Shown here: positions 243 through 17,806 of the stretch, piece after piece
How positions within the stretch are numbered: the stretch's first letter is position 1
Layout of the letters: each line of letters starts with the position of its first letter
Assembly: GCA_030428255.1 (NCBI GenBank)
Contig: JAUIBT010000009.1
Location: forward strand, 1-64,000
DNA from: Alphaproteobacteria bacterium
GTDB taxonomy: Bacteria; Pseudomonadota; Alphaproteobacteria; UBA7985; JAUIBT01
Length of the DNA stretch: 64,000 nt
Direction: 5' to 3'
The notes under the pieces: model-generated
The model's database searches: none
What the model saw: only the letters and a program-made list of their open reading frames with translations
Told to the model about the DNA's origin: nothing
Position numbers and translations under genes: made by a program

Positions 243-1151
243 CTAGGAACCCAGCTTGGTGAGCAAGGCCTGGAACTGGTCCCCGTCGTTGAAATAGATA
301 CTCACACGGCCACGGCCACGTTTGTGCTTTAACTCAACTTTCAGACCCAAGAAGTCCTCAAGCGACCGGCGCACTGCTTCGCTGTCGGGGTCCAGGGCAG
401 GTTTGGCCGCTTGCGCAGCCTGGCTGCCCCCCTCGGCCTTGCTGGCCGCGACTAGAGCCTCGGTCTGGCGAACGCTGAGCCCCCGCTCGATCACCTGCTG
501 CGCCAGGGCCGCCGCTTGCGGGTGGCCGATAAGCGCGCGCGCGTGACCGGCGCTCAGGCTGCCTCCCGCCACCAACTGCTGCACCTCAACCGGCAGATCC
601 AACAGGCGGACCAGGTTGGCGATGTAGGGGCGGCTCTTGCCAAGCTGGCTGGCCAAGTCAGCCGCCGAATAGCCAAAATCGCGCAGAAGCTGAGCGTAAG
701 CACTGGCTTCGTCGATGGCGTTGAGATCCTCGCGCTGGGTGTTCTCGATCAAGCCCGCCTCCAGGCATTGCTGGTCGTTAAGCGGGAGCACGCGCACCGG
801 CAGGCTGTGCAGGGCCGCGTGCTGAGCGGCCCGCCAGCGCCGCTCGCCCGCGATAATTTGAAACCGCTCGCTGTCGCCCGGCGTCGGACGAACAACCAAA
901 GGCTGGATCACGCCAGACGCTTGAATCGACTGGGCCAACTCCCTAAGGCTGGCCTCGGGAAAATCCCTGCGGGCCTGGAACGGCGAAGGCTCTAGGCGAT
1001 CAATGGCCACTTCGCGATGCGTGTCCACCACCGAGCCCTGGGCTCTTGCTTGCGCTGCCGCCGCGCTGGGCGCGCCTGTGGCTTCAGACTGGAAATCCTC
1101 TGACAAGAGGGCGGCCAAGCCCCGGCCGAGGCGTTTTTTGGAACTGCTCAT
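243..1151 (-). CDS. parB: Chromosome-partitioning protein ParB
   Basis: ParB is the CTP-dependent DNA clamp that loads at parS and spreads to form the partition complex at the origin. The 302-aa protein begins MSSSKKRLGRGLAALL; LGRGL near the N-terminus is the segment that stimulates ParA. The CTP-binding/ParB box GERRWRAAQ sits near residues 105-115, and a helix-turn-helix follows (SAADLASQLGKSRPYIANLV). The C-terminus is a basic dimerisation domain (LKHKRGRGRVSIYF). The frame stays open upstream, but the ATG at 1151 gives the family-typical N-terminus. It lies downstream of parA in the usual operon, and two parS sites are nearby. Confidence 0.96.
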   Translation of the reverse strand: MSSSKKRLGRGLAALLSEDFQSEATGAPSAAAAQARAQGSVVDTHREVAIDRLEPSPFQARRDFPEASLRELAQSIQASGVIQPLVVRPTPGDSERFQIIAGERRWRAAQHAALHSLPVRVLPLNDQQCLEAGLIENTQREDLNAIDEASAYAQLLRDFGYSAADLASQLGKSRPYIANLVRLLDLPVEVQQLVAGGSLSAGHARALIGHPQAAALAQQVIERGLSVRQTEALVAASKAEGGSQAAQAAKPALDPDSEAVRRSLEDFLGLKVELKHKRGRGRVSIYFNDGDQFQALLTKLGS

Positions 1152-1225
1152 CTGATCTGCATCCTTGGCGATGTCATCACGGTGTTGAAGCTGGCGCGCA
1201 GTGCGAACGGAATTCAACGGCCTGC

Positions 1226-2026
1226 TTATGCCGGTTCGCGTGGGCGCAGCCCCTCCTTGGTTAGGATTTCTGCGGCAAGCGCCATATAGGCCTTGGAGCC
1301 CGAGGCCAGGCGATCATAGAGGATGATCGGCTTTCCGTGCGACGGTGCCTCGGCCAACTTGATATTGCGCGGAATTTCGGTCTGGAATACCGCAGACCCA
1401 AAGGTGGCGCGCACATCCTCAGCAACCTGTTTGGACAGGTTCGTATGATCCACCATGGTCAGCAAAATGCCGTAGAGGCTCAGGCCAGGATTGCGGCTGC
1501 GTTTGATGTCCTGCATGAAATCGTACATGCGTGACAGGCCTTCAAGGGCAAAGTATTCGGTTTGCAGCGGCACCAGCACGCCATCAGCAGCCACCAAAGC
1601 GTTGAGCGGCAGCAAGGACAAGGACGGCTGACAATCAATCAGCACAAAGTCATAGTCCTGTTTGACGGTCTGCAAAACGCTGCGGAGCCGCTCGATGGCA
1701 TCCTCTTGCTGCTGCAAATCGATCTGGGTGGAGGCTAGAGATGACTGAGAGGGCGCAAGCTCCAAGCCGGGCACGTCGGTGGCAACGATAACCTGGCGCA
1801 GGTCTGCCTCGCCCTCCAGGACCTCGTACAAAGAGCCATTAAGGCTGCGCGGATCGATGCCTAGGCCCGAGGTGGCGTTGGCCTGAGGGTCCAAATCGAC
1901 CAGCAAGCAACGCAGCCCGCAAGCTGCAAATGCCGTCGCCAAATTGACGGCGGTGGTGGTTTTGGCAACCCCACCCTTTTGGTTGGCGATAGCCAGAATG
2001 CGCGACAAGCGCGGCTCGGTGGTCAT
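1226..2026 (-). CDS. parA: Chromosome-partitioning ATPase ParA
   Basis: ParA is a nucleoid-bound P-loop ATPase that moves ParB-parS complexes to the new pole. The 266-aa protein starts MTTEPRLSRILAIANQKGG. The deviant Walker A motif reads KGGVAKTTT near residues 16-24: both signature lysines are present, but the position usually occupied by glycine is alanine. The switch motif DLDPQANATSG and the Walker B-like segment FVLIDCQPSLSLLPLNAL follow. A longer reading with 18 more residues is open, but it does not resemble the family, so the ATG at 2026 was chosen. It is followed by parB and preceded by rsmG. Confidence 0.96.
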   Translation of the reverse strand: MTTEPRLSRILAIANQKGGVAKTTTAVNLATAFAACGLRCLLVDLDPQANATSGLGIDPRSLNGSLYEVLEGEADLRQVIVATDVPGLELAPSQSSLASTQIDLQQQEDAIERLRSVLQTVKQDYDFVLIDCQPSLSLLPLNALVAADGVLVPLQTEYFALEGLSRMYDFMQDIKRSRNPGLSLYGILLTMVDHTNLSKQVAEDVRATFGSAVFQTEIPRNIKLAEAPSHGKPIILYDRLASGSKAYMALAAEILTKEGLRPREPA

Positions 2027-2092
2027 AATAAAGCGACGTCCAACTGGAAAAGGCAGCACGAAGTGGCTGCGTCCGGCCAAAATCGGCCAATA

Positions 2093-2731
2093 CTATCGAG
2101 GCTTAAGCTGGCGGATTTCGAGCACCACGCCTGCCTCATGGGTGCTACTCTGATACGCCGTCCAATGGAAGTCGTAATCCAGAACTGCGTGGGCAAGCTC
2201 GTCTTGCCAGCGCTCGCCTTTCAGCAGCAACAGCCGGGTTTCAGGGCCGACAAACCCCTGTGAGAGCTGCAAAAGCCGCGGAAGCGGGGCAAAGGCGCGC
2301 GCGGTTATCGTTGTTGCGGTCCAGGGCGGCATGGCTTCAAGGCGTTGGCTGATGACCCTAAACGACAGGCCCAGGTCGCGAGCAGCTTGGCGCAAGAAAG
2401 CCGATTTGCGCTTGTCCGACTCCACCAGCGTCAGTTGATGCGACCAGCCGAGGTGGTCAAAGCCAATTGCCAGTGGAATTGCAGGCAAGCCGCCGCCCGA
2501 GCCCAAGTCCAGCAGGCGCTCAGCGGGGTCTGCCTGGAAAAAGCCCAGCAACTGGATCGAATCGCGCAAATGGCGGTCCAGGGCGGCTTGCTGGGTCGCG
2601 GGGCCGATCAGATTGATCCGTGCTTGCCATTTGAGCAGCAGCGCCAAATAGTGCTGACAGCGCGGGTCTTGCGTTAGAATCGTCTCTGTTTCACGTGAAA
2701 CAGGCAACGGCAGAGCCTTGGTGCCGGTCAT
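2093..2731 (-). CDS. rsmG: 16S rRNA (guanine-N7) methyltransferase RsmG (GidB)
   Basis: RsmG transfers a methyl group from SAM to the N7 of a guanine in the 530 loop of 16S rRNA. The 212-aa protein has the SAM-binding motif LLDLGSGGGLPAIPLA near residue 70 and the conserved WQARINLIGP segment that precedes it. The first codons overlap a perfect parS palindrome, which is translated as VSRET. The gene sits 6 bp from the end of mnmG in the conserved mnmE-mnmG-rsmG-parA-parB run. Confidence 0.95.
   Translation of the reverse strand: MTGTKALPLPVSRETETILTQDPRCQHYLALLLKWQARINLIGPATQQAALDRHLRDSIQLLGFFQADPAERLLDLGSGGGLPAIPLAIGFDHLGWSHQLTLVESDKRKSAFLRQAARDLGLSFRVISQRLEAMPPWTATTITARAFAPLPRLLQLSQGFVGPETRLLLLKGERWQDELAHAVLDYDFHWTAYQSSTHEAGVVLEIRQLKPR
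2687..2702. promoter_or_regulatory. parS: parS site 1 (perfect 16-bp palindrome)
   Basis: TGTTTCACGTGAAACA matches the bacterial ParB-binding consensus in every base and is a perfect palindrome. It lies inside the 5' end of rsmG, about 1.5 kb from parB and about 8 kb from the predicted origin, where centromere sites are expected. Confidence 0.96.
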
Positions 2732-2737
2732 AGCGCT

Positions 2738-4591
2738 CTACAGCCGCTTGAGGTGGCGCATGATGGCGATTAGCGCGTGGGGCGTGACGCCCGGAATCCG
2801 CGACGCCTGGCTGAGGTTTTGCGGCCGAGCGCGCTGAAGCAGCTCCAGCTCCTCGCCGGACAGACTGCCAACTTCGGCATAGGGAAAGTCCGGCGGTAAC
2901 TTGATCTGCGCCTCCTTCTCCAAAATCTTTACGTCGCTCGTTTGCCGCTTGATGTAGCCTGCATACAAAGCGTCGGTTTTGATTTGCTCCAAAATGCCGT
3001 CGGAGAAGCGCGCCAGCTCAGGCACCGCCGCTTTGAGTTGCGCAATCTCGATGCTCTCGATCGCGGCCATGTCAGCGACCGAGCGGCGCTGACCGTCGCG
3101 TTTGACCTCAAAGCCCTTGCCCTGCCATTCCTGGGGGCTCAGCCGCAGAGCGTCACAAAAGCGCTGTGCCGCTTCCAAGTCGGCCTTCTTGGCCTGCCAC
3201 GCCTGGCGGCGGGCCGCGCTGGCCAACCCTAGCGCCACAGCCGTATCGGTCAGGCGTTGGTCAGCGTTGTCGGGACGCAGGCTGAGCCGAAACTCTGCGC
3301 GGCTGGTGAACATGCGATAGGGCTCTGGTGCCCCACGTGTGACCAGATCATCGACCATGACACCGATGTAGGATTCGTGCCGCCCGAGCCGCAACCGCGC
3401 CGCCTTGCCCCCAGCCTGCAGGGCCGCATTGGCTCCAGCCAGCAGCCCTTGGCCAGCGGCCTCCTCATAGCCGGTGGTGCCGTTGATCTGCCCGGCCAAA
3501 TAGAGCCCATCGCAGGCCTTGAGACTGAGGTCATCGTTCAGCGCACGTGGGTCGATATAATCGTATTCCACCGCATAACCATACTGCTCGATCCGAACCT
3601 GCTCGAGCCCCTCGATGGAGCGAATGTAGGCGTCCTGCACTGCGCGCGGCAAAGAGGTCGAGATGCCGTTCGGGTAGACCGTATCCACGTCCAGTCCCTC
3701 GGGCTCCAAAAACACCTGGTGGCGATCCTTGTCGGCAAACCGGGTCACCTTGTCCTCGATTGACGGACAATAGCGCGGGCCCTTTGAGACGATCTGACCC
3801 GAAAAAATGGCCGATAAGTGTTTGTTTTCGTGAATGATCGCGTGAGTTCGCGGATTGGTGTAGGTAATCCCGCACGCAATTTGCGGCACCCGTATCTTGT
3901 CCGTCAAAGTCGAAAAGGGCAGCGGCAGCGGGTCGGCTTCTTGCATCTCCAAACGATCCCAAGCGATGGTCTTGCCGTCCAGACGCGCAGGCGTGCCAGT
4001 CTTCAGGCGGTCGATCGGAAGCTCCAGCGAGCGCAAGAAGCGCGCCAAGTCGTTGGAGGCTGCCTCGCCAATGCGGCCGGCCGGGATCACCTCGTCTCCG
4101 ATGTGAATGGTACCGCCCAAGAATGTGCCGGTTGTGAGCACCACCGCAGCGGCCCGCAGGACCCGGCCATCGGCCAGACGCACTCCTGCCACCCGGCGTT
4201 CCTCCAGCACCAACCCGACGACCTCAGCCGACAGGCAGGTCAGGTCGTCCAGTTCGGCCAGCAGCGCTTGCACTGCCGCCTTGTAGAGTTTGCGGTCGGC
4301 TTGAGCACGTGGACCGCGCACCGCAGGGCCCTTGCTGGCGTTTAAAACGCGAAATTGGATGCCTGCTTGGTCGATCGCGCGGCCCATGATGCCGTCCAAA
4401 GCATCGACCTCGCGCACCAAATGGCCCTTGCCGACCCCACCAATCGCCGGATTACAGGACATGGTACCAATGTCAGCCACATCGAAGGTGATCAAGGCTG
4501 TTGCAGCGCCCAGGCGTGCGGCCGCCGCAGCAGCTTCGACACCGGCGTGACCACCGCCGATCACCAACACATCAAAATGCGTTTGGGTCAT
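2738..4591 (-). CDS. mnmG: tRNA uridine-34 5-carboxymethylaminomethyl modification enzyme MnmG (GidA)
   Basis: MnmG is the FAD-dependent partner of MnmE. Together they make the cmnm5 modification at the wobble uridine of several tRNAs. The 617-aa protein opens with the FAD Rossmann motif [19 protein letters not shown]. The family signature [20 protein letters not shown] contains a conserved cysteine near residue 47. A second signature, [11 protein letters not shown], follows, and the helical C-terminal MnmE-binding region ends in HLKRL. Nine extra codons are open upstream, but the ATG at 4591 places the FAD motif at the usual distance. parS site 2 lies just upstream. Confidence 0.97.
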
Positions 4592-4635
4592 GATATTACC
4601 TCTCGCCCCTCGCTGCATCGCGGCAGCTTAGCTCT

Positions 4636-4651
4636 GGTTTCACGTGAAACA
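4636..4651. promoter_or_regulatory. parS: parS site 2 (15 of 16 bases)
   Basis: GGTTTCACGTGAAACA differs from the perfect parS only in the first base and keeps the 14-bp palindromic core GTTTCACGTGAAAC. It occupies the 60-bp gap between mnmE and mnmG, 1.95 kb from site 1. Confidence 0.93.
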
Positions 4652-5980
4652 TCACTTGCCGATGCAGAAGTTTGCAAACAAAGCGTCGAGCATTTCCTCG
4701 ACATCGTAGTCACCCAGCAACAAGGATAAAGCATTGATTGCACGCGTCAAATGCAGAGCCTGCACTTCAATCGCCGTCTGGTGGTCGATCTCATCCAGCG
4801 CCGTCAAACAATCACTTGCTAGCCGATTCTGCCGTTCGCTGGTCAGCGCTTGGCTCAATCCCTGGATCTCAACCAAGGCCAGCACCCGGGCTTGCAGTGC
4901 CCGTCGCAACGACTCCAACCCAGCGCCACTGCGATTGTCGATCAAAATTGTAGCATCATCATGCCCCAAGCCGCCCGCTTCGCCGCTCGAAGCTGCTGCA
5001 GGTGCATCAGAAAAGCTTTGAACACAAAGATGTGCGTCTGCCAGCGGCTCCCCGCCTGGACGCTGCAGGCTGACACGAATATCGGCCTCGTCCCACAGAG
5101 CCCGAGCTCGCGCAATTCCCATCGCCTCGACCGCCCCGCTCTGATGGCGCAGCCCAGCGGTATCAACCAGGGTCAGCGGGATGCCCGCCACCTCCATGTG
5201 CGCCTCAATCGAGTCGCGCGTCGTGCCCTCAGAATCGTGCACCAAAGCCACAGAGCGTCCAACTAAGTTATTGATTAAGCTTGATTTACCGACGTTGGCT
5301 GGTCCGGCGATCACGCAGAGCAGACCTTGGCGGTGCCGCTCCAGCCAATGGCTGGCGTCAACCGATTGGCGCAGCTCGAGACACAGCCGCTGCAACCCAG
5401 CTTGCCAGGGTTGGGCCTCCAACTCGGGCAAGTCTTCGTCGGCAAAGTCGATGCAGGCTTCCACGTCGGCCAAAATCGTGATGAGCTGGCGGCGCCAGCC
5501 GCGCACCATGGCCTCCTGAGCCATGACCCGGCTGCGTTTGCCCAGTTCCTTGTGCCAGGGTGTTTCTGCCTCCAGCAAAGCACCCAGCGCCTCGACTTCC
5601 AGCACCGACAGCTTGCCGTTCATCAGCGCCCGGCGGGTAAATTCGCCAGCCTTGGCGGGGCGAACCCCCGGCTGGCCCTCCAGGCAGTCCAGCAGGTCTC
5701 GCACGATCAAGGGGCTACCGTGGCAGTGAATTTCGGCCACCGCCTCACCGGTAAAAGAGCGGCCTTCCTCAAAGGTCAGCAGCAGTGCCTCGTCCAGCAG
5801 GCTGCCGTCTTGGGGATGATAAAGCGCGCGCAAACTGGCCTGCCGCGGCTCAGGCAGCGCGCCCTTCAGCAAAGCCGCCACAGCGCTCCAGGCCTGCGGC
5901 CCGGACAGACGCAAAACCGCAACCCCGGCACGCCCTGCGCCCGAGGCCAGGGCGACAATGGTGGCGCGCTCCTCGGCCAT
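4652..5980 (-). CDS. mnmE: tRNA modification GTPase MnmE (TrmE)
   Basis: MnmE is the tetrahydrofolate- and GTP-binding partner of MnmG in tRNA wobble-uridine modification. The 442-aa protein has the N-terminal formyl-THF domain (IHCHGSPLIVRDLL), the inserted G domain with P-loop GPANVGKSSLINNL and switch DTAGLR, and the C-terminal catalytic motif CIGK as its last four residues. Length and order match the family. It lies 15 bp from rho and upstream of mnmG on the same strand. Confidence 0.97.
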   Translation of the reverse strand: MAEERATIVALASGAGRAGVAVLRLSGPQAWSAVAALLKGALPEPRQASLRALYHPQDGSLLDEALLLTFEEGRSFTGEAVAEIHCHGSPLIVRDLLDCLEGQPGVRPAKAGEFTRRALMNGKLSVLEVEALGALLEAETPWHKELGKRSRVMAQEAMVRGWRRQLITILADVEACIDFADEDLPELEAQPWQAGLQRLCLELRQSVDASHWLERHRQGLLCVIAGPANVGKSSLINNLVGRSVALVHDSEGTTRDSIEAHMEVAGIPLTLVDTAGLRHQSGAVEAMGIARARALWDEADIRVSLQRPGGEPLADAHLCVQSFSDAPAAASSGEAGGLGHDDATILIDNRSGAGLESLRRALQARVLALVEIQGLSQALTSERQNRLASDCLTALDEIDHQTAIEVQALHLTRAINALSLLLGDYDVEEMLDALFANFCIGK

Positions 5981-5995
5981 GCTTCAATCCGGTTG

Positions 5996-7252
5996 TTACT
6001 GGTTCATCGACTGGAAGAAATCGTCGTTGGTTTTGGTTTCGCGCAGTTTGCCGAGCAAGAACTCCATGGCCTCGGTCGCACCCATCGGCATGAGCACGCG
6101 GCGCAGGACCCACATCTTTTGCAGGACATCGCGCGCCACCAACAGCTCTTCTTTACGGGTGCCGGACTTGCCGATGTCGATGGCCGGGAAGGTGCGCTTG
6201 TCTGACAGCTTGCGATCCAACACCAGCTCAGAGTTGCCCGTGCCTTTGAATTCCTCAAAGATCACTTCGTCCATCTTAGAGCCGGTATCGACCAGAGCTG
6301 TACCAATAATGGTCAGTGAGCCACCTTCTTCGATGTTACGCGCCGCGCCAAAGAAGCGCTTGGGGCGTTGCAGGGCGTTGGCATCAACACCACCTGTCAA
6401 GACCTTGCCAGAGGAGGGCACCACGGTGTTATAGGCGCGGGCCAAACGAGTGATGGAGTCCAGCAGGATGATAACATCGTGCTTGTGTTCAACCAGGCGC
6501 TTGGCCTTTTCGATCACCATTTCAGCCACCTGCACGTGGCGCGAGGCTGGTTCGTCGAAGGTCGAACTCACCACCTCACCGCGCACAGAACGCTGCATGT
6601 CGGTCACCTCTTCCGGGCGCTCGTCGATCAGCAGTACCAGCAAGTAGGCTTCAGGGTGATTGGTGGCGATCGACTTGGCAATATTCTGCAAAATCATCGT
6701 CTTGCCAGAGCGCGGCGGTGCCACGACCAGGGCGCGCTGGCCCTTGCCTACAGGCGCAACCAGGTCGATAATCCGCCCGGTATAGTCTTTGCGGGTCGGG
6801 TCCTCGATCTCCAGCTTCAAACGCTGATCGGGATACAGCGGCGTTAAGTTGTCGAAGTTGACACGCAGGCGCGCTTGCTCGGGGTCAGAGTGGTTGACCT
6901 TGGTGATTTTGGTTAGCGAGAAATAGCGCTCGTTTTCCTTGGGCGCTTTGATCTCGCCTTCAACCGTGTCACCGGTGCGCAGCGAAAAGCGGCGGATCAG
7001 GTTGGGGCTGATGTAGATGTCATCCGGGCCAGGAAGATAGTTTTCTTCCTTCGAGCGCAGATAGCCAAAGCCATCTTGCAGCACTTCCAGCGTGCCATCG
7101 CCAAACAGAGCCTCGTCGTTCTCGGCGCTTTGCTTCAAAATCGCAAACATCAGCTCCTGACGACGCATGTTGCCGGGATCTTCGAGTTCGAGCTCTTCGG
7201 CCAAATCCAGAAGGTCGGCAGGACTCTTCTGCTTGAGTTCAGATAAATGCAT
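5996..7252 (-). CDS. rho: Transcription termination factor Rho
   Basis: Rho is a hexameric RNA helicase that ends transcription of untranslated RNA. The 418-aa protein starts [21 protein letters not shown]. It has the cold-shock-like RNA-binding domain with GFGYLRS and [10 protein letters not shown], then the ATPase core with P-loop [12 protein letters not shown] and the segment [13 protein letters not shown]. The conserved [12 protein letters not shown] and [22 protein letters not shown] follow. Seventeen upstream codons are open but do not look like Rho. The gene is followed by mnmE. Confidence 0.97.
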
Positions 7253-7573
7253 GGACCAACAATGTCTATGGGGGGTGGAAGGAGGCCGCCGAACCTTCGC
7301 CAAGCCGCTATGAAGGCGAACCAGGCGGCGAAGCCCAAAGGCGCCATGCCCTTCCGATAGGAAGCCTGTGTCTACGATGTTCTGTGGCTGGCGTCAATCG
7401 CCAAGCGCAAGCCCATGTCAGGCCCGCCGGGCACCAAGCCTGCTTTTGGCCGCCACGCTTAGGCATTAGCGACAAGGCCTTTGAGCCAAGCTGGCCGCGC
7501 AGGGGCTCGTATTTTGTAACCAATTCAGTATGTTAGCTTGGATCTCTCAGTGAGACCTTAGCGCACAAGCGGC
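7253..7573. other. Intergenic region between hemJ and rho, no gene recognised
   Basis: This 321-bp stretch lies between the end of hemJ and the start of rho, which share a strand. Short open frames here have no recognisable domain. I see no clear intrinsic terminator. It presumably carries the rho promoter and leader. Confidence 0.6.
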
Positions 7574-8023
7574 TTAGAATGGCTTCACCACCACCATGAC
7601 GACAATAACAATCATCGCAAGCGTCGGTATTTCATTCATAAAGCGATAAAAGCGCGCGTCGTGCTGATTCTCGTCGCGGGCAAAGGCCTTGAGCCAGCGG
7701 GTGCAATAGCCGTGGAAGCCGAATAACCCACCAAGTGCCATGACCTTGATCCAGAACCAAAGCGAGTTCCAGATCGCCGGGCCACCCAAAATGGCCAACA
7801 CCACACCAGCAGCCAAGGCCGCCAGCATGGCCGGATTCATAATCAGGCGATAGAGGCGGTCTTCCATGCCCTTCAGCAGCTCCGAGGCCTCTGAGCCGGC
7901 GTCAAGCCCCGCGTGATTGACGAACAAGCGCGGCAGATAGAGCATGGCCGCCATCCATGAGATGACCGCCAACACATGAAATGCCTTAATCCAAGGCTGC
8001 AAGACCAACAGTATATCACCCAC
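7574..8023 (-). CDS. hemJ: Protoporphyrinogen IX oxidase HemJ
   Basis: HemJ is an integral membrane enzyme that oxidises protoporphyrinogen IX to protoporphyrin IX, the step before ferrochelatase. It has about four hydrophobic helices, with the family segments WIKAFHVLAVISWMAAMLY (conserved His), GMEDRLYRLIMNPAM and WFWIKVMALGG. The start is set by a GGAGG ribosome-binding site 7 bases before the GTG at 8023, giving 149 aa, normal for the family. An open frame runs 8 codons further upstream but includes that site. hemH is the upstream neighbour, so the last two heme steps are adjacent. Confidence 0.93.
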   Translation of the reverse strand: MGDILLVLQPWIKAFHVLAVISWMAAMLYLPRLFVNHAGLDAGSEASELLKGMEDRLYRLIMNPAMLAALAAGVVLAILGGPAIWNSLWFWIKVMALGGLFGFHGYCTRWLKAFARDENQHDARFYRFMNEIPTLAMIVIVVMVVVKPF

Positions 8024-8173
8024 GGCATGTCCTCCACATAGCGCCACTTACCTTTTTGTTCTTCCTGGTCGATCCTTTTGGCAGACTTCGCTTTGGTCAG
8101 CGTTGCGCTCGATCAAACCGCCCTATCCGGCACCGCCAAACCCAGCAAGCCCCGGCTTTCCGCCCAGCAGGTG

Positions 8174-9343
8174 TTACTGGATCTTATCGCCCCAACCCTG
8201 CTCAGCAGGCGCCATCGAGGCCACCGGCTCCAACTGGCAAGGACAGCGGCTGCGATCCCCCGAACAGATCCGCGTGCCCTTATAGGAGGCGATGCCCGTG
8301 CCACGGTTGAGGCTCGCGCGCACCTGCTCAGCCAAAGCGTCGATGTAGGTCATGCGCGCATTGATGGTCGGCACCCGCTCATAGGCGGGGACTCCGGCCT
8401 CTTGGGCCACTTCGCCGTATTCTTCATCCAGCTCAACCAGAGTCTCCGAGTGCTCAGAGACGAAGGCAATGGGCACCAGCACCACGGGCACGCCATCATG
8501 CCCGGCTTGCTCGATTTCCTTTTCCGTATCGGGCTCCAGCCATTTCATCGGCCCGACCTTGGATTGAAAACAGATCCGCCAATCGGCGTCTTTCAAGCCC
8601 GTGGCCTGCATCACCAGGTGGCAGGACTGCTCGACCTGAGCTTGATAGGGGTCGCCCTTACGGATCATACGCACCGGCAGCCCATGGGCAGAGAACAAGA
8701 TCCGCGGCGATCCAGCTTTGGACGCCCGTTCATAGGCCTCGGCGGTTAGGCGGGCCATGCCGTCGATAAAGCCCGGCTCGTCGGGGTAGCAGCAAATCAG
8801 GTGCGTCGGCACGTCCAGCCCGATCTTCTCAGCCGCTTGCTGCCAGACCCGGTAGGATGAGCCCGTGGTCGCCCGCGCGTACTGCGGATACAGCGGCAGC
8901 AGCACGATGCGATCGGGCTTCCAGGACTGCACCTGGCGCACAGCCTCATCGCTCATGGGGTGCCAATAGCGCATAGAGATAAAGGTTTTCACCGCCCCCA
9001 GACCAAACTGGTCCGATGACAGCACGTCTTGCAGCTCTTCGGCTTGGCTCTTGGTATAGCCCAAAATGGTCGATCCGCCGCCCATTTCGGCATAGATTTT
9101 CTTGGCCGTCGGAGCGCGCCAACGCGACAGGGCGTGGGCTAGAACGTAGCGCACCGGTGCAGGAGCCTCGACGATATAGGGATCGTTGAACAGGTTGAAC
9201 AAGAAGGGCTGAACCGAGTCTTGATCGTCCGGGCCCCCGTATTGCAGCAGCACGACTGCCACGCGTTCTTGGCTAACATCTGCCTCAGGGGTGGAGGATA
9301 TCTCCGTTTGGCTGGAGCTGTCGGTCACTCGGGGCCTCTTCAT
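8174..9343 (-). CDS. hemH: Ferrochelatase HemH with [2Fe-2S]-type C-terminus
   Basis: HemH inserts Fe2+ into protoporphyrin IX. The 389-aa protein has VVLLQYGGPDDQDSV at the start of the catalytic domain, the active-site histidine in FSAHGLP, and the acidic metal-handling segment FVSEHSETLVELDEEY. The C-terminal tail has ICSGDRSRCPC, a C-x6-C-x-C pattern, and an internal cysteine pair occurs in LICCYPDEPGF. This geometry matches that described for bacterial ferrochelatases carrying a [2Fe-2S] cluster; cluster binding here is inferred. The ATG at 9343 was preferred over a TTG 17 codons upstream. About 30 residues of unconserved N-terminus precede the domain. Confidence 0.96.
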   Translation of the reverse strand: MKRPRVTDSSSQTEISSTPEADVSQERVAVVLLQYGGPDDQDSVQPFLFNLFNDPYIVEAPAPVRYVLAHALSRWRAPTAKKIYAEMGGGSTILGYTKSQAEELQDVLSSDQFGLGAVKTFISMRYWHPMSDEAVRQVQSWKPDRIVLLPLYPQYARATTGSSYRVWQQAAEKIGLDVPTHLICCYPDEPGFIDGMARLTAEAYERASKAGSPRILFSAHGLPVRMIRKGDPYQAQVEQSCHLVMQATGLKDADWRICFQSKVGPMKWLEPDTEKEIEQAGHDGVPVVLVPIAFVSEHSETLVELDEEYGEVAQEAGVPAYERVPTINARMTYIDALAEQVRASLNRGTGIASYKGTRICSGDRSRCPCQLEPVASMAPAEQGWGDKIQ

Positions 9344-9455
9344 GGTTGCGATCAAGTCCCAAGGGCCGCCATTGCGCGGAGCCCAGGAAATCAATCAGGG
9401 TTCTTACATGGGTCAGGCACAGAGCGCGCCTCACCTGCTGCTAAGATACAACCCC

Positions 9456-10493
9456 CTAGGCCCGACGCAAGCGACGCGACAAAAGGTCAACATGTGCGAC
9501 CGGGGTCGGCGGAATGAGGCCATGCGAGAGGTTGAAAATCATCGGCCCATCGCTCCAAGCTTCCAGGATCTGTTCAGCCGCCCCCAGCATGGCATCACCG
9601 CCGGTGACGACCATTAGTGGGTCCAGGTTGCCTTGCAAGCAAACGTGGGGCTGCAGTTGCTCGCGGGCAAAGTCCAAGCCCACGGTATGGTCCAGCGACA
9701 GGGCGTCAAAGCACCCCATCTTGGCCAGCTTGACCGTGTTGGTCCCCACCTGCCGAGCAAAGGCGATGATCGGCACATGCGGATAGCGTTGCTTCAGGCT
9801 CTGTGCAATTTCGGCCATGGGCGCGAAAGACCAGCGCTCCTGGTGGGCTTCATCAAGCGTGCCTGCCCAGGAATCGAACAGCTGCACCACCTCGGCCCCG
9901 GCCTCGATCTGCGCCGACAGGTAGTCGATGGTTGCTTCCACCAAGCGATCCATCAAGCGGCCAAAACTCTTCGGATCGCCATAGGCCCACTGCTTGACCG
10001 TCTCGTAATTGCGCGACGAACGGCCTTCGACCATATAGGTCGCAACCGTCCAAGGCGCTCCGGCAAAGCCAATCAAGGCAGTGCCCTTGAAATCTTGCTC
10101 CAAGTCATTCGAGAGCCGCGTTACAACATCGAAGATCGGCGAGAGGCGCTGGATCATCGCAGAGCGATCATAAGCCTCTAAATCGTCGACTGAACGGATG
10201 GGCTCCAGCCTTGGGCCTTCGCCTTCTTCGAACCAGACCTTCTGGCCCAAACCCAAGGGCACGACCAGGATGTCTGAGAACAAGATCGCAGCATCCATAC
10301 CAAAGGCGCGCAGCGGTTGCTTGGTGACTTCAACGGCTTTTTCGACGTTGAAACAAAGATCTAAGAACCCACCGGCATCGGCTCGTACAGCGCGATATTC
10401 GGGCATATAGCGCCCGGCTTGGCGCATGAACCAGAAGGGTGGGCGATCGACATGTTGGCGCCTTAGAGCGCGGAGTAGAGCTTTTTCTTCCAT
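9456..10493 (-). CDS. hemE: Uroporphyrinogen decarboxylase HemE
   Basis: HemE decarboxylates the four acetate side chains of uroporphyrinogen III to give coproporphyrinogen III. The 345-aa protein begins MEEKALLRALRRQHVDRPP, followed by the signature PFWFMRQAGRYMPEYR. Later segments FSDILVVPLGLGQ, GFAGAPWTVATYM and FDSWAG are typical. The ATG at 10493 gives the standard N-terminus; the longer open frame does not look coding. In alphaproteobacteria this gene borders oriC, and a 630-bp gap follows here. Confidence 0.96.
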   Translation of the reverse strand: MEEKALLRALRRQHVDRPPFWFMRQAGRYMPEYRAVRADAGGFLDLCFNVEKAVEVTKQPLRAFGMDAAILFSDILVVPLGLGQKVWFEEGEGPRLEPIRSVDDLEAYDRSAMIQRLSPIFDVVTRLSNDLEQDFKGTALIGFAGAPWTVATYMVEGRSSRNYETVKQWAYGDPKSFGRLMDRLVEATIDYLSAQIEAGAEVVQLFDSWAGTLDEAHQERWSFAPMAEIAQSLKQRYPHVPIIAFARQVGTNTVKLAKMGCFDALSLDHTVGLDFAREQLQPHVCLQGNLDPLMVVTGGDAMLGAAEQILEAWSDGPMIFNLSHGLIPPTPVAHVDLLSRRLRRA

Positions 10494-11123
10494 GCCAAAC
10501 CAGTAGAAAGATTCTAAAAAATAAGAAAGTGTAGATGTGGTTGGGCGACAAAAAGGTTGAACATCTTTTCTTTTCCCGCGCTCATCCTTGACTCTATCCT
10601 GAGGCGAAGATTCCGCTTGGCGTTTGAATCCAATCAGGTTTCGCACGTCGCTGAGCCTGCGCTCCCAACCAGAGGTCTTGGCTTGCGCACATGGGCATGG
10701 TCTGTGTGGGACTCCGCCTGCTTATCCCAACGCGCGCACAGGCAAAATGCGACCAGGCCCCGGGCTTGTATGAGCTGTGCACAACACCCCCGGTTGCCCA
10801 CAGGCTGTTTACAGTTTTCCCGCAGTCTAATTTTCCCGTCGACCTTTGACCTTTCAGCCGGGTGAAGATCTGGTTTCTTGCTCCGCCCCGCAGCCAGCTG
10901 AAGCGCTATTTCCCGCAAGGCCTGCGATTTCCTTACATCTTGCGCGCATAGGTGTTTGCCCTCAAGGCCCGATTCCCGCATACAAGAAAACTCGCACAGG
11001 GCTGCCGCTGGGCACCATCCGAGGGCGTGTTGGTGCGCCAAGGCAAGGGACTGCGCGCCCTTTGCCCTCCGATGATCGTCAGGCGGCTACGCCCTATCCA
11101 TCTCTAGGCTTGGTTCTTGATCC
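10494..11123. other. oriC: Predicted replication origin (oriC) between hemE and the RP001-type regulator gene
   Basis: This is the largest gap in the left half of the window. It separates divergent gene blocks: everything left is on minus, everything right to 15 kb is on plus. hemE next to the DUF299 gene (RP001 homologue) is the origin context known from Caulobacter and Rickettsia. DnaA-box-like nonamers, none perfect, include TTGTGCACA on the minus strand (10776-10784), TTGCCCACA (10794-10802) and TTATCCCAA (10722-10730). An A/T-rich tract at 10511-10530 could be the unwinding element. The call rests mainly on synteny and strand switch. Confidence 0.7.
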
Positions 11124-11999
11124 ATGACGTTGCCCTTTCATATGCATTTGGTCTCCGATTCGACCGGTGAGACCATCAACACCGTCGCGAGAGCTTGCCT
11201 TGCTCAGTTCGAAGATGTCCAGGTCGAGCTGCATGTCTGGTCCCTGATCAAGTCGCCGACCCAGCTCAACGCGGTGATCGAGGCCATCCGCGTCTTGCCT
11301 GGCCCGGTGCTCTATACGGTTGTAGACGAAAACCTGCGCAAAGATTTGGAGAGCGCCTGCCGGCGCATGGGCACACCCTCAGTGCCGATCTTGGACCGGC
11401 CCATCGCCATGCTGTCGGCCTTCTTTGGGGTCGAGACCGTCGGCAAGCCCGGCCTGCAGCACGAATTGAGCCCGGAATATTTCCGCCGCATCGCCGCCAT
11501 GGATTTCGCCATGCGCTGTGACGATGGCCAGAGCGAAGATTTCTACCGCGAGGCCGATATCATCCTGGTCGGCGTGTCGCGCACCTCGAAAACCCCGACC
11601 TCGGTCATTTTGGCACAAAAGGGCATCAAGGCGGCCAATATACCTTTGGTTCCTGGCAGGCCGTTCAACGAGGCCTTGGTCAGCCTGAAGAAGCCGCTGT
11701 TTGTCGGTCTGATCAACGATCCGCGCAAGCTGTCCGAAGTGCGGCGCTCGCGTCTGGAGCATTTGGGTCAGATCCCTGCGACCGACTACGTGGATGTCGA
11801 GGCGATCCGCGAGGAGATCCGCGACGCGCGCCGCCTGTTCACCAAGTACCGCTGGCCGGTGATAGATGTCTCCCGCCGTTCGATTGAGGAGACCGCCGCC
11901 CAGGTGCTCAATCTTTATAACCGCCGCCAAGCCGAGCGCGCCGCTGAGGCTGCTACCGCCGAATCTCCGGCAAGCACGCCTTCGATAGAGCGTGCTTAA
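11124..11999 (+). CDS. ppsR: Bifunctional kinase/pyrophosphorylase regulator (DUF299, PDRP/PSRP type)
   Basis: The DUF299 family phosphorylates and dephosphorylates pyruvate phosphate dikinase or PEP synthase, controlling pyruvate-PEP interconversion. The 291-aa protein starts MTLPFHMHLVSDSTGET, a strong family signature. It has the P-loop-like VGVSRTSKTPTS near residue 153 and the segment IPLVPGRP. The final 25 residues are Ala/Glu/Ser-rich. Which of the two kinases it regulates cannot be told from this window. It is the first gene right of the predicted origin and is followed by maf after 35 bp. Confidence 0.93.
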   Translation: MTLPFHMHLVSDSTGETINTVARACLAQFEDVQVELHVWSLIKSPTQLNAVIEAIRVLPGPVLYTVVDENLRKDLESACRRMGTPSVPILDRPIAMLSAFFGVETVGKPGLQHELSPEYFRRIAAMDFAMRCDDGQSEDFYREADIILVGVSRTSKTPTSVILAQKGIKAANIPLVPGRPFNEALVSLKKPLFVGLINDPRKLSEVRRSRLEHLGQIPATDYVDVEAIREEIRDARRLFTKYRWPVIDVSRRSIEETAAQVLNLYNRRQAERAAEAATAESPASTPSIERA

Positions 12000-12034
12000 G
12001 TTTCTGTTTTCGTTAACTAAAAAAGCCCCATGCG

Positions 12035-12664
12035 ATGACCCAGGCCTCTTTCTTGCAGACCCCCGACGCAGCGCCGCTGGTTTTGGCGTCGGGGTCTGCC
12101 ATCCGGCGCGAGCTGTTGGCCAACGCAGGGCTCGACTTTGTGGTTGACCCTGCGCATGTCGATGAAGCGCTGGTCAAACAGGATCTGGCACGCGAAGGCG
12201 AGTCTGCCGAAGCGCTGGCCGAGACCCTGGCCGAGCTGAAAGCCCGCCAAGTGGCGTTGCGCCGCCCCGGTGCGCTGGTGCTGGGCTGTGATCAGGTTTT
12301 GGCCTGCGGCAAGGTCTTGTTCGATAAACCAGCGGACTTGGACCATGTGGTCGGTCACCTTCAGGCCCTGTCTGGCAAGACCCACAGCCTGCATTGTTCC
12401 TTAGTGTTGCAACAAGGCGAGCAGCGTATTTGGCATGTCAATCGGCGTGCGGATCTGACGATGCGCAAGCTCAGCCCCGAGTTTATTCAAGGCTATGTGG
12501 CAGCGGTGGGCCCACAGGTCATGACATCGGTTGGGGCCTATCAGCTTGAGGGCCTCGGCGCGCAGCTCTTTAGCCGCATCGAGGGTGACTATTTTACCAT
12601 CCTGGGGCTTCCCTTGCTGGATTTGCTGGACTTTCTACGTGCGCGAGGAGACCTGTTGGCATGA
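12035..12664 (+). CDS. maf: Maf-family nucleoside triphosphate pyrophosphatase
   Basis: Maf proteins hydrolyse non-canonical or modified NTPs to monophosphates. The 209-aa protein opens with LASGSAIRRELLANAGLDF, the family signature with the conserved Ser and Arg. It has LVLGCDQVLAC with the catalytic aspartate and the C-terminal SVGAYQLEGLGAQLF and GDYFTILGLPLLDLL. Its stop overlaps the aroE start by 4 bp, so the two are translationally coupled. Confidence 0.94.
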   Translation: MTQASFLQTPDAAPLVLASGSAIRRELLANAGLDFVVDPAHVDEALVKQDLAREGESAEALAETLAELKARQVALRRPGALVLGCDQVLACGKVLFDKPADLDHVVGHLQALSGKTHSLHCSLVLQQGEQRIWHVNRRADLTMRKLSPEFIQGYVAAVGPQVMTSVGAYQLEGLGAQLFSRIEGDYFTILGLPLLDLLDFLRARGDLLA

Positions 12665-13521
12665 TCAGCGGACACGCGACTTTGGCCGGGGTTATGGGCT
12701 GGCCGATTGCACACTCCAAGTCGCCGCAACTGCACGGCACCTGGTTGGCGCGCCATGGCATCGACGGCGCCTACTTGCCGCTGCCGGTTGACCCTAAGGA
12801 GTTGGCCACCGCTGTCGCGGGGCTAAAGGCGCTGGGTTTTGCTGGTTGGAACGTCACCATTCCCCACAAGCAGGCCATCGCACCCTTGTTGGACGGCTTG
12901 ACCCCCGAAGCTGAAGCCATAGGGGCGGTCAACACGGTCATTCGCCAGGACGACGGCCGCTATCTGGGCCACAACACCGACGGCTATGGCTTTATGGAGA
13001 ACCTGCGTCAGGCACAACCGGGCTTCGATTTTCAGGGCAAAACGGCGCTGTTGCTGGGCGCGGGCGGTGCCAGCCGCGCTGTGGTCCACGGTTTGCTGAG
13101 CGCGGGCCTTGCGCGACTGGTGATCGCCAACCGCAGCCTAGAGCGCGCTCAGGACCTAGCTGCCAGCTTCAACGCTTCTTTTTCCGATCGTCCGCAAGTG
13201 CCCTGCCAGGCGGTCGCTTGGACTAAGGCCAGCCAAGCCGCCGAGCAAGCCGAGCTGCTGATCAACTCCACCAGCTTGGGCATGGCGGGCAAGCCGCCAT
13301 TGACCCTCGACCTGGAGGCGCTGGCGACCAGCGCCTTGGTCACCGATCTGGTCTATAACCCGCTGGAAACCGAGCTGTTGGCTTGGGCGCGCGCGCGCGG
13401 CAACCCGGCGGTTGATGGCCTGGGCATGTTGCTCCACCAGGCCCGCGCGGCTTTCCAGGCTTGGTTCAAGACCGACGTGGTGGTGGACCAAGCCCTGCGC
13501 GATGCCGTGCTGGCGTCTTAG
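12661..13521 (+). CDS. aroE: Shikimate dehydrogenase AroE
   Basis: AroE reduces 3-dehydroshikimate to shikimate with NADPH. The 286-aa protein begins with the substrate motif MGWPIAHSKSPQLHG. The catalytic lysine is in NVTIPHKQAI near residue 68, the paired aspartate is in GHNTDGYGF, and the nucleotide-binding loop is LLLGAGGASRAVVHGL. It overlaps maf by 4 bp and precedes coaE by 15 bp. aroK and aroB are also in this window, at 32-33.7 kb. Confidence 0.96.
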   Translation: MISGHATLAGVMGWPIAHSKSPQLHGTWLARHGIDGAYLPLPVDPKELATAVAGLKALGFAGWNVTIPHKQAIAPLLDGLTPEAEAIGAVNTVIRQDDGRYLGHNTDGYGFMENLRQAQPGFDFQGKTALLLGAGGASRAVVHGLLSAGLARLVIANRSLERAQDLAASFNASFSDRPQVPCQAVAWTKASQAAEQAELLINSTSLGMAGKPPLTLDLEALATSALVTDLVYNPLETELLAWARARGNPAVDGLGMLLHQARAAFQAWFKTDVVVDQALRDAVLAS

Positions 13522-13536
13522 ACAGGAGCGGTCCGC

Positions 13537-14217
13537 ATGAAGATCATCGGCATCACAGGCTCGATCGCGATGGGCAAGTCTACCGCCTCGGCCATGCTGG
13601 CGCGCATGGGCTGCCCGGTTCACAACGCCGATGCTGTGGTCCACAGACTGATGGCGCGCGGCGGTGCAGCGGTTGCGCCCGTCGCCGCGTTGTTTCCTGG
13701 CACACTGCAAGATGGAGCCATCCACCGCCCCAGCCTGCGCCAAGCCGTGTTGGGCAAACCCGAGCAGTTGGCGCGCTTGGAAGCTGTCGTCCATCCGCTG
13801 GTGCATCGCGCGTTGAAGCGGTTTTTGCTCGATCACCAGCGTGTGGGTCGCCCGGCAGTGGTGATCGACGTGCCACTGTTGTTTGAAACCGGCGGTGATA
13901 CGCGCTGCGATTTGGTGTTGGTGGTGGACTGCTCGCCAGCGGTGCAGCAACAGCGCTTTCTGGCTCGGCCAGGGGCCAAGCTGGAGACCCTGCAAGCCAT
14001 CCGCGCCCACCAAATGCCCCAGGCCGAAAAGCGCCGCAAGGCTGACCGCATCATTCCCACCGGCGCCGGCCGCGCCGCCACCTGGCAGGCTTTGGCCGCT
14101 GCCCGCCGTGCGCTGGTGTCTGCGGACTGGAGCCGCCCGCCAGTCTGGCCGATCCAAGCCTACAAAAACCCCTCGTTTCGCGGTGCCTTGCACGGCCCGC
14201 ACCTGGCCGGACTGTAG
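13537..14217 (+). CDS. coaE: Dephospho-CoA kinase CoaE
   Basis: CoaE phosphorylates dephospho-CoA in the last step of CoA synthesis. The 226-aa protein starts MKIIGITGSIAMGKST, whose P-loop is GSIAMGKST. PLLFETGGDTRCDLVLVVDC and the CoA-binding lid QMPQAEKRRKADRIIPT follow. About 25 residues at the C-terminus, after RAALVSADW, extend beyond the core. It lies between aroE and dnaQ, the conserved order in alphaproteobacteria. Confidence 0.94.
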   Translation: MKIIGITGSIAMGKSTASAMLARMGCPVHNADAVVHRLMARGGAAVAPVAALFPGTLQDGAIHRPSLRQAVLGKPEQLARLEAVVHPLVHRALKRFLLDHQRVGRPAVVIDVPLLFETGGDTRCDLVLVVDCSPAVQQQRFLARPGAKLETLQAIRAHQMPQAEKRRKADRIIPTGAGRAATWQALAAARRALVSADWSRPPVWPIQAYKNPSFRGALHGPHLAGL

Positions 14218-14241
14218 GCCCCTTGTTCTGGAGATCCCCGC

Positions 14242-15000
14242 ATGATCCGTGAAATCGTTCTTGATACCGAGACCACGGGCTTCAAGCCCAGTGAAGGCCA
14301 CCGCATCGTCGAGATCGGCTGCATCGAGCTGATCAACCACGTTGCGACCGGCGAACATTTCCACGTCTATTTGGACCCCGAGCGTGACATGCCCGAGGAG
14401 GCCGCCCGCGTCCATGGCCTGACCATGGATTTTCTGGCCGGTAAGCCCAAATTCCACGAAAAGGCACAGGAGTTCCTTAATTTTATTCAAGACTCGACGC
14501 TGGTGATCCACAACGCCGAGTTCGATATGACCTTCTTGAATGCCGAGCTGATCGCGGCAGGTTTTGAGGCGTTGCCCATGTCGCGCGCGCTGGACACTCT
14601 GCCGCTGGCCCGGCGCAAGTTCCCGGGGGCGTCGGCGAGCTTGGATGCCCTGTGTCGCCGATTTGAGGTCGATAACTCTAACCGCGAGCTGCACGGGGCT
14701 TTGTTGGACTCCGAGCTGTTGGCCGAGGTCTACTTGCACCTGATTGGCGGTCGCCAGCCCGAGCTGATGGCGGCCCTGGCTGCCGGGGCTGACAAGACTG
14801 ATGCCCGCGCCAAGACCGCTGAACCTGAAGGCGGCGACCTGTCGGCTCTGCTGGATCGCGGCCGCCAGGGACAAGCGCGCCCGCCGCGCGCGTTTCCCGC
14901 CTCGCCCGAGGAGCTGGCCGCCCATCGCGCCTTCCTCTCTGAGTTGAAAGACCCGATCTGGCTCAAGCTGTGGGGCCAAAGCGAAGAGGCACAGGGTTGA
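14242..15000 (+). CDS. dnaQ: DNA polymerase III epsilon subunit (3'-5' proofreading exonuclease)
   Basis: DnaQ proofreads for the replicative polymerase. The 252-aa protein has the DEDDh exonuclease motifs: LDTETTGF (ExoI), [11 protein letters not shown] (ExoII) and [15 protein letters not shown] (ExoIII, with His and Asp). Residues from about 184 to 252 form a flexible Ala/Glu/Pro-rich tail ending [16 protein letters not shown]. The last 207 bp, from 14794, are duplicated 1,445 bp downstream; the copy is identical from 14866 on. The catalytic domain itself is unique and intact. Confidence 0.95.
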
Positions 15001-16654: not shown

Positions 16655-17239
16655 ATGTCTTATACAACCCTAACAACAGCTAATCCCAGTTTTTCTAGTC
16701 ACCAATCTTTTGGCCACCAAAGGCGACATCGCCGTCCAGGATCGTTTCCCCCCGGCGCGCTGCAAAGATTTCTGGATGTGCCAGCACCACCAAAAATCAC
16801 ACCCCATTCCTGGCGTTCGCGGCACCCTGAGCGCTCAATCCCAGCGCCCCGACAGAATTCAGAACCACGCGTGGTGACGACCCGGCGCTACGCGCAGGGC
16901 CAGGTCCGACGCGGCCCAGGCTACCCCGAGGGCGGCCCGACCCCGGCGACGGCCTATTCGGTGAACCAGGGGCGCTACTCTGTGCCATTTTCGACCACCG
17001 GCTCTATTCGGCCTGCTTACAATTTTGATACCAGCGGGTGTAATTGGCACGACTTTGCAAACTCCACCGTCGGGAAAACTGTGGAAGGGGCAGTAACAGG
17101 AGCTGTTACCGGCGGCATAACTGGAGCTTCGGCTGCAGGAGGAGGAGCGGTCCCCGGAGCCGCGATGGGCGCGCTCGCGGGAGCGGGCATTGGTGCGCTT
17201 GGCAGTAGCGCTTACTATGGTGCGAGCTGCTGGTGGTAA
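16655..17239 (+). CDS. Cassette 2: glycine-zipper peptide with the same leader (microcin-like toxin candidate)
   Basis: This is a 194-aa protein. Residues 1-65 are identical, also at DNA level, to cassette 1. Residues 66-128 are unrelated to cassette 1, rich in Arg, Gly and Tyr. The last 66 residues form a glycine-zipper module beginning CNWHDF, with VEGAVTGAVTGGITGA, central AVPG and GALAGAGIGALG, and ending GASCWW. Cys129 and Cys192 have the same 62-residue spacing and the same two residues after the last Cys as in cassette 1. The start and ribosome-binding site lie in the repeat. The toxin role is inferred. Confidence 0.75.
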   Translation: MSYTTLTTANPSFSSHQSFGHQRRHRRPGSFPPGALQRFLDVPAPPKITPHSWRSRHPERSIPAPRQNSEPRVVTTRRYAQGQVRRGPGYPEGGPTPATAYSVNQGRYSVPFSTTGSIRPAYNFDTSGCNWHDFANSTVGKTVEGAVTGAVTGGITGASAAGGGAVPGAAMGALAGAGIGALGSSAYYGASCWW

Positions 17240-17635: not shown

Positions 17636-17806
17636 CTACCATCGGCGCAAGATCTTGGTCATGTTGGCAAAGGGACGGTGATTGAAGCGCCATCCGCACT
17701 CCTTGATATAGAGGTAGACCCGCTGTTGAGGACTGGCATTGTATCGTCTTAGATGGCGCTTGATCCGGGCTCAGAAGGTCTCGACGTTGTTGATGTGGTT
17801 GGCGTG
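17636..17806 (-). pseudogene. Remnant of an IS1595-family (ISXO2-like) transposase C-terminus
   Basis: Read on the minus strand, one frame gives NHINNVETF, a stop, then ARIKRHLRRYNASPQQ, VYLYIKECGWRFN and ILRRW. This matches the end of ISXO2-like transposases (NH-x-N-x2-E-x-F-W, then KR-x-LR-x-YN and KEC-x-(F/W)-RFN). The stop replaces the conserved Trp of the FW pair (TGA for TGG). No terminal repeats or N-terminal half remain. It sits directly before the third glycine-zipper module. Confidence 0.8.

Follow-up and report, generated by a model that had tools for sequence, protein, structure and literature searches.

Where does the chromosome of an uncultured alphaproteobacterium begin to replicate? 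For uncultured bacteria the origin can rarely be placed with confidence, and GC skew is described as a poor guide in several Alphaproteobacteria (PMC1914354). The question was raised here by a 630-bp gap (10494-11123, between two start codons) in a genome of 3,515,428 bases (G000) in 58 unordered contigs; the window is the 64-kb start of one of these, C33, which has 121,429 bases. The original prediction was a likely chromosomal origin in a gap between two outward-transcribed arms, bordered by hemE and a DUF299 gene. Both the borders and the arms were confirmed by profile matches and by the strand pattern: the gap separates hemE (9456-10493, minus strand, ATG at 10493; TIGR01464, 384.7 bits) from the divergent ppsR, which is the DUF299/COG1806 gene (11124-11999, plus strand, ATG at 11124; NF003742, 303.9 bits), and the named genes are all on the minus strand from 243 to 10493 (parB, parA, rsmG, mnmG, mnmE, rho, hemJ, hemH and hemE) and all on the plus strand from 11124 to 15000 (ppsR, maf, aroE, coaE and dnaQ). 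A secB label for 16655-17239, by analogy with Caulobacter, is not used; this interval gave no NCBIfam match.

Other contents of the gap were considered. A structured RNA or a tRNA was rejected, as no Rfam match was found in the gap or in the wider interval 9000-12500 and no tRNA was found within the 64-kb window. A protein-coding gene was rejected as well, on reading frames that are inconsistent among the sister species and on indels that are mostly not multiples of three (3 of 16 are, between the window and L021, one of two relatives, L021 and L022, whose PpsR is 91-93% identical to that of the window). The 150-codon open frame of the window resembles only weakly a frame of the sister L036 (38.9% over 54 aa), whereas the long frame of the other sister, L035, finds its counterpart in a different frame of L036 (50% over 106 aa). 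The 106-codon frame common to both sisters is a point against this rejection; we interpret it as frames that stay open by chance because the sequences are related.

The same pair of genes borders the origin of Caulobacter crescentus (Cori), which was located experimentally at hemE/COG1806 (PMC1914354). The hemE border is also shared with the predicted origins of Rickettsia and Wolbachia, and in Rickettsia so is the COG1806 border (PMC1914354). Within the class, a ppsR match was found in 165 of 241 genomes, and among 102 loci chosen by such a match, mostly one to three per family, 93 provided a hemE/ppsR gap, the other nine dropping out for want of a hemE match in the sequence examined. The 93 gaps are not independent, with several coming from one family (for example L188 and L196, or L195 and L200). 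We conclude with good confidence that the location is an ordinary one for an alphaproteobacterial origin.

A partition locus lies on the hemE side of the gap, with parB (243-1217, minus strand; TIGR00180, 173.7 bits, above the cut-off) and a parA-like partition ATPase (1226-2080, minus strand), named parA by context, as its best match, TIGR03453 at 111 bits, falls below the cut-off. Perfect parS sites of the form GTTNCACGTGNAAC occur only twice in the 3.5-Mb genome, both beside parAB and 6-8 kb from the gap, as GTTTCACGTGAAAC at 2688-2701 and again at 4637-4650. Allowing up to one mismatch adds two further places, but the reversed pattern, run as a control, then gives 8 per strand, and the count was therefore restricted to perfect sites. 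Both sister species likewise carry two perfect parS sites near mnmG and mnmE. Across 20 class loci, such a pair near mnmG/mnmE was seen in six (the window, L035, L036, L037, L041 and L045), and many of the other 14 do not extend to these genes. In Caulobacter, parS lies a few kb from the origin; the proximity of parS and parAB as a sign of an origin is general knowledge and stands outside the published criteria.

The gap was then compared with the rest of the 121-kb contig, cut into half-overlapping 630-bp segments (380 besides the gap). The relaxed DnaA box TTNNNCACA was found three times in the gap and at most twice in each of the other segments, and the six GANTC sites of the gap were not reached in any of the 380. 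Counted as TTATNCACA with up to one mismatch, the gap has a single box and 40 of the 380 segments have as many or more; with up to two mismatches it has five, which 28 of the 380 match or beat. The DnaA-box cluster therefore exceeds chance only as relaxed TTNNNCACA, and not as TTATNCACA with mismatches. In the window, two-mismatch matches to TTATCCACA numbered 95 against 76.9 expected, and since 28 of the 380 segments also equal the gap for TTATNCACA, two-mismatch matches mean little. Measured against shuffles of the gap itself, the GANTC excess is less marked: its count was reached in 14 of 2000 shuffles, and those of the sisters in 1 and 36 of 2000.

GC skew changes from -0.035 on the left of the gap to +0.020 on the right, and the cumulative minimum of the contig is found at 45.5 kb, 35 kb away; these values are for the contig alone, of which only 10.5 kb lie to the left of the gap, in a genome of 58 unordered contigs. 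Third-position skew of genes was too small for use (+0.022 for minus-strand genes on the left, -0.042 for plus-strand and -0.063 for minus-strand genes on the right). For comparison, skew was taken from 20 stretches in each of four relatives. The sign change of G022 falls between 1.86 and 2.18 Mb, with the gap at 2.21 Mb and dnaA at 0, which places the change within 330 kb of the gap and about 1.2 Mb from dnaA, although the break is not at the gap itself, because the sample just to its left is already positive (+0.080). In G019 the change falls between 3.57 Mb and the start, and the gap (3.61 Mb) and dnaA (0) are inseparable; in G024 the gap lies inside a broad flat stretch between the negative and the positive parts, and G038 showed no clear pattern. 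GC skew is thus compatible with the gap as the origin but does not pinpoint it.

These data bear on the alternative that the gap is a mere divergent promoter region for hemE and ppsR and that replication starts elsewhere, for example at dnaA. The promoters of two divergent genes must indeed sit in the gap, where a conserved 26-bp block starts 11 bases from the hemE start codon and a -10-like TAGAAT can be seen by eye on the hemE strand, and the skew minimum of the contig at 35 kb also favours it. The unique parS pair and the clusters of boxes and GANTC sites in the gap speak against it; dnaA, which is on another contig (C22), has no excess of boxes (13 against 15.4 expected in 10 kb), so that an origin there was rejected, and the skew break of G022 is far from dnaA; finally, the origin element described below adjoins hemE in nine relatives without a ppsR match. 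We consider a promoter-only gap very improbable. The gap is very probably the chromosomal origin of this alphaproteobacterium, a reading that draws its support from synteny, the parS sites, the clustering of boxes and GANTC sites and their conservation, and on these same grounds the original claim of an origin stands.

How would DnaA recognize this origin? The original prediction saw only imperfect boxes, at 10722, 10776 and 10794. All three are present, each two mismatches away from TTATCCACA, but the list was incomplete: it lacked the box at 10683 as well as two conserved CACA boxes, one at 10703 and one at 10732. In order along the gap, the candidate box TTGCGCACA (10683-10691, plus strand) is TTTTGCACA and TTGTGCACA in the sisters; the CACA box TCCCACACA (10703-10711, minus strand) is identical in the three species; TTATCCCAA (10722-10730, plus strand) is not conserved in the two sister species and is probably due to chance; the CACA box GCGCGCACA (10732-10740, plus strand) is TTGTGCACA and TTGCACACA in the sisters, with an alignment that is ambiguous because of an alignment gap; the candidate box TTGTGCACA (10776-10784, minus strand) is TTATGCACA and TTATTCACA; and the candidate box TTGCCCACA (10794-10802, plus strand) is TTGCACACA in both sisters. 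The boxes share a CACA core, mostly as TTG..CACA, and the cores of the five boxes other than that at 10722 are identical in 20 of 20 columns among the three species, where the remainder of the gap has 186 identical columns of 559, the five having been chosen in part for being conserved. Nine CACA words are present in the gap, six of them kept in both sisters and three (10536, 10775 on the plus strand and 10990) not.

A further alternative is that the origin is in the gap but that the DnaA of this lineage reads a changed box, with TTGYGCACA as the high-affinity site. It draws on the TTG..CACA form of the boxes, shared by them in place of TTATNCACA, and on the recurrence of similar forms in the sisters. 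Against it, the box-reading helix-turn-helix of DnaA has the usual RPRQ and GGRDHTT, and a 40-residue stretch of domain IV is identical in the three species. Among 31 DnaA sequences, RPRQ was found in 30, RDHTT in 31 and GGRDHTT in 26, the three of the window's genus having all of them, and on this survey an altered reading of the box was rejected. In a structure search, domain IV of this DnaA matched the E. coli domain 1J1V, which we take to be the box-bound DnaA domain. Furthermore, at the 10776 place both sisters carry an exact TTATNCACA (within TTATGCACA and TTATTCACA) where the window has TTGTGCACA. A changed box is thus improbable, and because domain IV is canonical and the sisters have exact TTATNCACA, the boxes look weak rather than re-specified. 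Weak boxes are known in the Caulobacter origin, where they are described as a tuned feature (PMC4468827, PMC4285127) and where a higher box affinity can lower replication (PMC4468827), so the earlier idea that initiator recognition differs here was abandoned. According to a review, weak sites like those of Caulobacter have not been identified in other bacteria (PMC10797057); judged from its boxes, the window's genus is a candidate for having them.

Between the boxes and hemE, an AT-rich block, TAGAAAGATTCTAAAAAATAAGAAAG (10504-10529, plus strand), is the proposed unwinding element. It contains GATTC, is identical in 26 of 26 columns in the three species (outside the conserved elements, 186 of 559) and overlaps the most AT-rich 40-mer of the gap (10497-10536; 25% GC, against 56% for the gap and 61.6% for the contig), which is among the lowest 0.16% of the window by GC. 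The GANTC sites are at 10510-10514 (GATTC in the three species), 10590-10594, 10609-10613, 10626-10630 (GAATC, GAATC and GATTC), 10710-10714 (GACTC, GAATC and GACTC) and 10971-10975; the sisters keep three of the six, two of these with a changed middle base, and those at 10590, 10609 and 10971 are not conserved. In the class gaps there are 288 GANTC sites, against 182.6 (sd 13.7) in shuffles, and three control words gave 95 against 110.0, 64 against 102.6 and 137 against 110.7. The genome has genes with RAMA (PF18755) and GcrA (PF07750) domains, the former a domain that CcrM also has; together with the GANTC sites, they make control by methylation plausible. According to a modelling paper, re-initiation in Caulobacter needs full methylation of the origin (PMC2217572); according to a review, CcrM is not required for initiation (PMC6090056).

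The explanation that best accounts for the whole, and in which we have high confidence, is a chromosomal origin at which DnaA would load on weak boxes and melt the AT block, with GANTC methylation as a probable control. The anatomy, conservation and clustering of these features were observed directly, and from them we infer where DnaA binds, where the DNA melts and what methylation does. DnaA would load on the low-affinity cluster at 10683-10802, oligomerize towards hemE and melt the AT-rich block at 10504-10529, at whose edge a degenerate DnaA-trio array (10532-10543) would be placed. As the box next to these triplets is degenerate, nucleation would have to bridge about 140 bp, for which DNA bending is a possible means. 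Re-initiation would probably be tied to the cell cycle by CcrM, through methylation of the six GANTC sites.

The likeness to the Caulobacter origin, which comprises the flanking genes, the weak boxes and the presence of CcrM- and GcrA-type genes in the genome, does not extend to its other control sites. The gap of the window has no TTAA, and hence no CtrA site of the form TTAA-N7-TTAA, so that a Caulobacter-like control by CtrA was not supported; neither G-boxes (TGATCCACA) nor W-boxes (TCCCCA) were found in the gaps of the window or of the sisters. The predicted origins of Rickettsia and Wolbachia are rich in AT, and in most of these species CtrA sites are predicted as well (PMC1914354), whereas the gap of the window has a GC content of 0.56 and no such site.

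What do the related origins carry at the AT block? At the hemE end of the class gaps, the order of elements is an AT-rich block, T(A/T/G)G triplets, a spacer, a DnaA box and CGGGGAT, written from an eye-selected alignment as an AT-rich block, (TNG)n, about GTGGATGCC, TGTGGATAA and CGGGGATT. On the strand running from hemE to ppsR, runs of at least four T[ATG]G triplets were found in 18 of the 93 gaps and of at least five in 16; no run of at least four was found on the opposite strand, and 1860 dinucleotide shuffles gave one of at least four and none of at least five. The other 75 gaps have shorter runs, the longest being a single triplet in nine of them. TNG is the commonest of the 16 combinations of outer bases (18 of 93 gaps, the next having 6; it appears as CNA on the other strand). 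Where at least three triplets follow one another (36 gaps, 144 triplets), the middle base is T in 56, A in 48, G in 40 and C in none. GGGGAT/ATCCCC is often found beside the DnaA box of class gaps. This word resembles the Caulobacter W-box (TCCCCA).

A sequence-only model of the element was built from the class gaps and run over 41 genomes with a match threshold of E<=1. A segment matching the box consensus at >=11 of 18 positions was obtained from 84 of the 90 gaps outside the window's genus, and 45 of these 84 were picked by eye for training, leaving out poorly anchored ones and with none from the window's genus. The model matched 33 of the 41 genomes, and hemE was placed in 28 of the 33. 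The best match lay within 400 bp of hemE in 20 of these 28, with 12 of the 20 untrained (the gaps of three of the 12, G011, G028 and G039, had been viewed before the consensus was written), nine of the 20 without a ppsR match, and some of the 20 weak (for example G007, E 0.13, and G028, E 0.23). In three of the remaining eight the match is on a contig without hemE and lies upstream of ppsR, at about 0.4 kb in G006 and G029 and at about 1 kb in G020; in the last five (G016, G023, G032, G036 and G040) it falls at other places. Family f2, which belongs to the same order, has matches in four of six genomes, all four beside hemE. As the model led to hemE in 20 of the 28 relatives, including nine that lack a ppsR match, a model from hemE/ppsR gaps could help to find origins in this class.

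With default filters, no match at E<=1 was obtained in the window's genome, its two sisters, G009, G010, G014, G021 and G024, nor, in the whole genome of the window, at E<=10. With filters off, the best match on the contig was 10504-10544 (10.6 bits), which covers the AT block and the triplets without the box, the next best being 3.8 bits in 30 kb and 4.2 bits on the contig or at the dnaA locus; the sisters, also with filters off, have their best matches at the place corresponding to 10504-10544 (11.0 and 7.7 bits). In the alignment with this class model (R1) the DnaA-trio position holds the degenerate triplets TAG ATG TGG TTG (10532-10543, plus strand). BUS also asks for at least three trios with a middle A; NAN triplets in the AT-rich part of the gap arise by composition. 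The match to R1 stops short of the place of the relatives' trio-proximal box, which, read by eye from an alignment, is ATGTTCAAC (10556-10564, minus strand) and TTATGCAAG and TTATTCAAG in the sisters. No two-mismatch match to TTATCCACA was found between 9787 and 10721, and the gap thus lacks the DnaA box that BUS demands at no more than 16 bp from the trios, with at most 2 mismatches. GGGGAT, present on either strand in 78 of the 93 class gaps, does not occur in any of the three that belong to the window's genus. Since the model match covers the AT block and triplets only and GGGGAT is absent, the genus keeps half of the class element, namely the AT block and broken triplets, without the adjacent box. 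The difference from most relatives is the missing DnaA box beside the triplet array, and the initiator sites of the window's probable origin are a variant.

Read on the other strand, the class element is a DnaA box, a spacer, triplets and AT-rich DNA, a layout like that of the Bacillus DnaA-trio system. The relatives share with BUS (PMC8287927) the order of box, spacer and triplets, their orientation and the AT-rich DNA beyond. In the class triplets, T(A/T/G)G, the outer bases are fixed and the middle one is variable, whereas the DnaA-trio consensus is 3'-GAT-5' with a search rule that requires a middle A (PMC8287927; PMC10721633), and a review allows the end bases to vary and holds that the middle one must be A (PMC6727663). 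From BUS, the window's genus differs in its missing proximal box and broken triplets. BUS was reported in 1755 of 2070 predicted origins, with five proteobacterial classes marked in a figure (PMC8287927). Passages from some of the DnaA-trio papers that mention Caulobacter describe no element of the class type, and alphaproteobacterial predictions may stand in the supplementary tables of PMC8287927.

The triplet element may be a new form of DnaA-trio. We propose, tentatively, that origins of the class carry a class-specific form in which T(A/T/G)G is repeated up to six times, with a free middle base, between the AT block at hemE and TGTGGATAA-CGGGGAT, that DnaA would read its outer bases, and that unwinding in the window's genus would start from boxes some 140 bp distant. 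Should the triplets prove to be DnaA-trios, the middle-adenine rule would be contradicted and the bases that DnaA reads would be revealed. The triplets could instead be another single-strand or protein site, such as TTGT repeats or a part of the hemE promoter, a reading that we hold to be rather unlikely. In its favour, the middle base is not the adenine of the trio rule (PMC8287927; PMC6727663), NAN runs of at least six are not enriched on this strand (13 of 93 gaps, against 21 on the other), and TTGT in the unwinding element of E. coli is a single-strand site required by its DnaA (PMC10797057). Against it, the triplets have an exact period of three on one strand only, box and spacer are placed and oriented as expected of a DnaA-trio element, and AT-rich DNA lies beyond. 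A lineage without the trio-proximal box would test the need for that box, and if the class-specific trio is true, the window's genus would be a natural experiment, in which the proximal box and all the GGGGAT words were lost and the AT block was frozen.

Two minor observations were made. The first glycine of the Walker A motif of DnaA is a serine in the three species of the genus (SGVGLGKTHL for GGVGLGKTHL; the dnaA of this genome is at L034:4355-5827, minus strand), and elsewhere among the 31 DnaA sequences a serine was found only in L081 (SSVGLGKTHL), L072 being unreadable by the pattern. The second best match of the class model in 30 kb is at 17786-17803, 7 kb from the gap, and shares GATGTGGTTGG with the triplets at 10534-10544.
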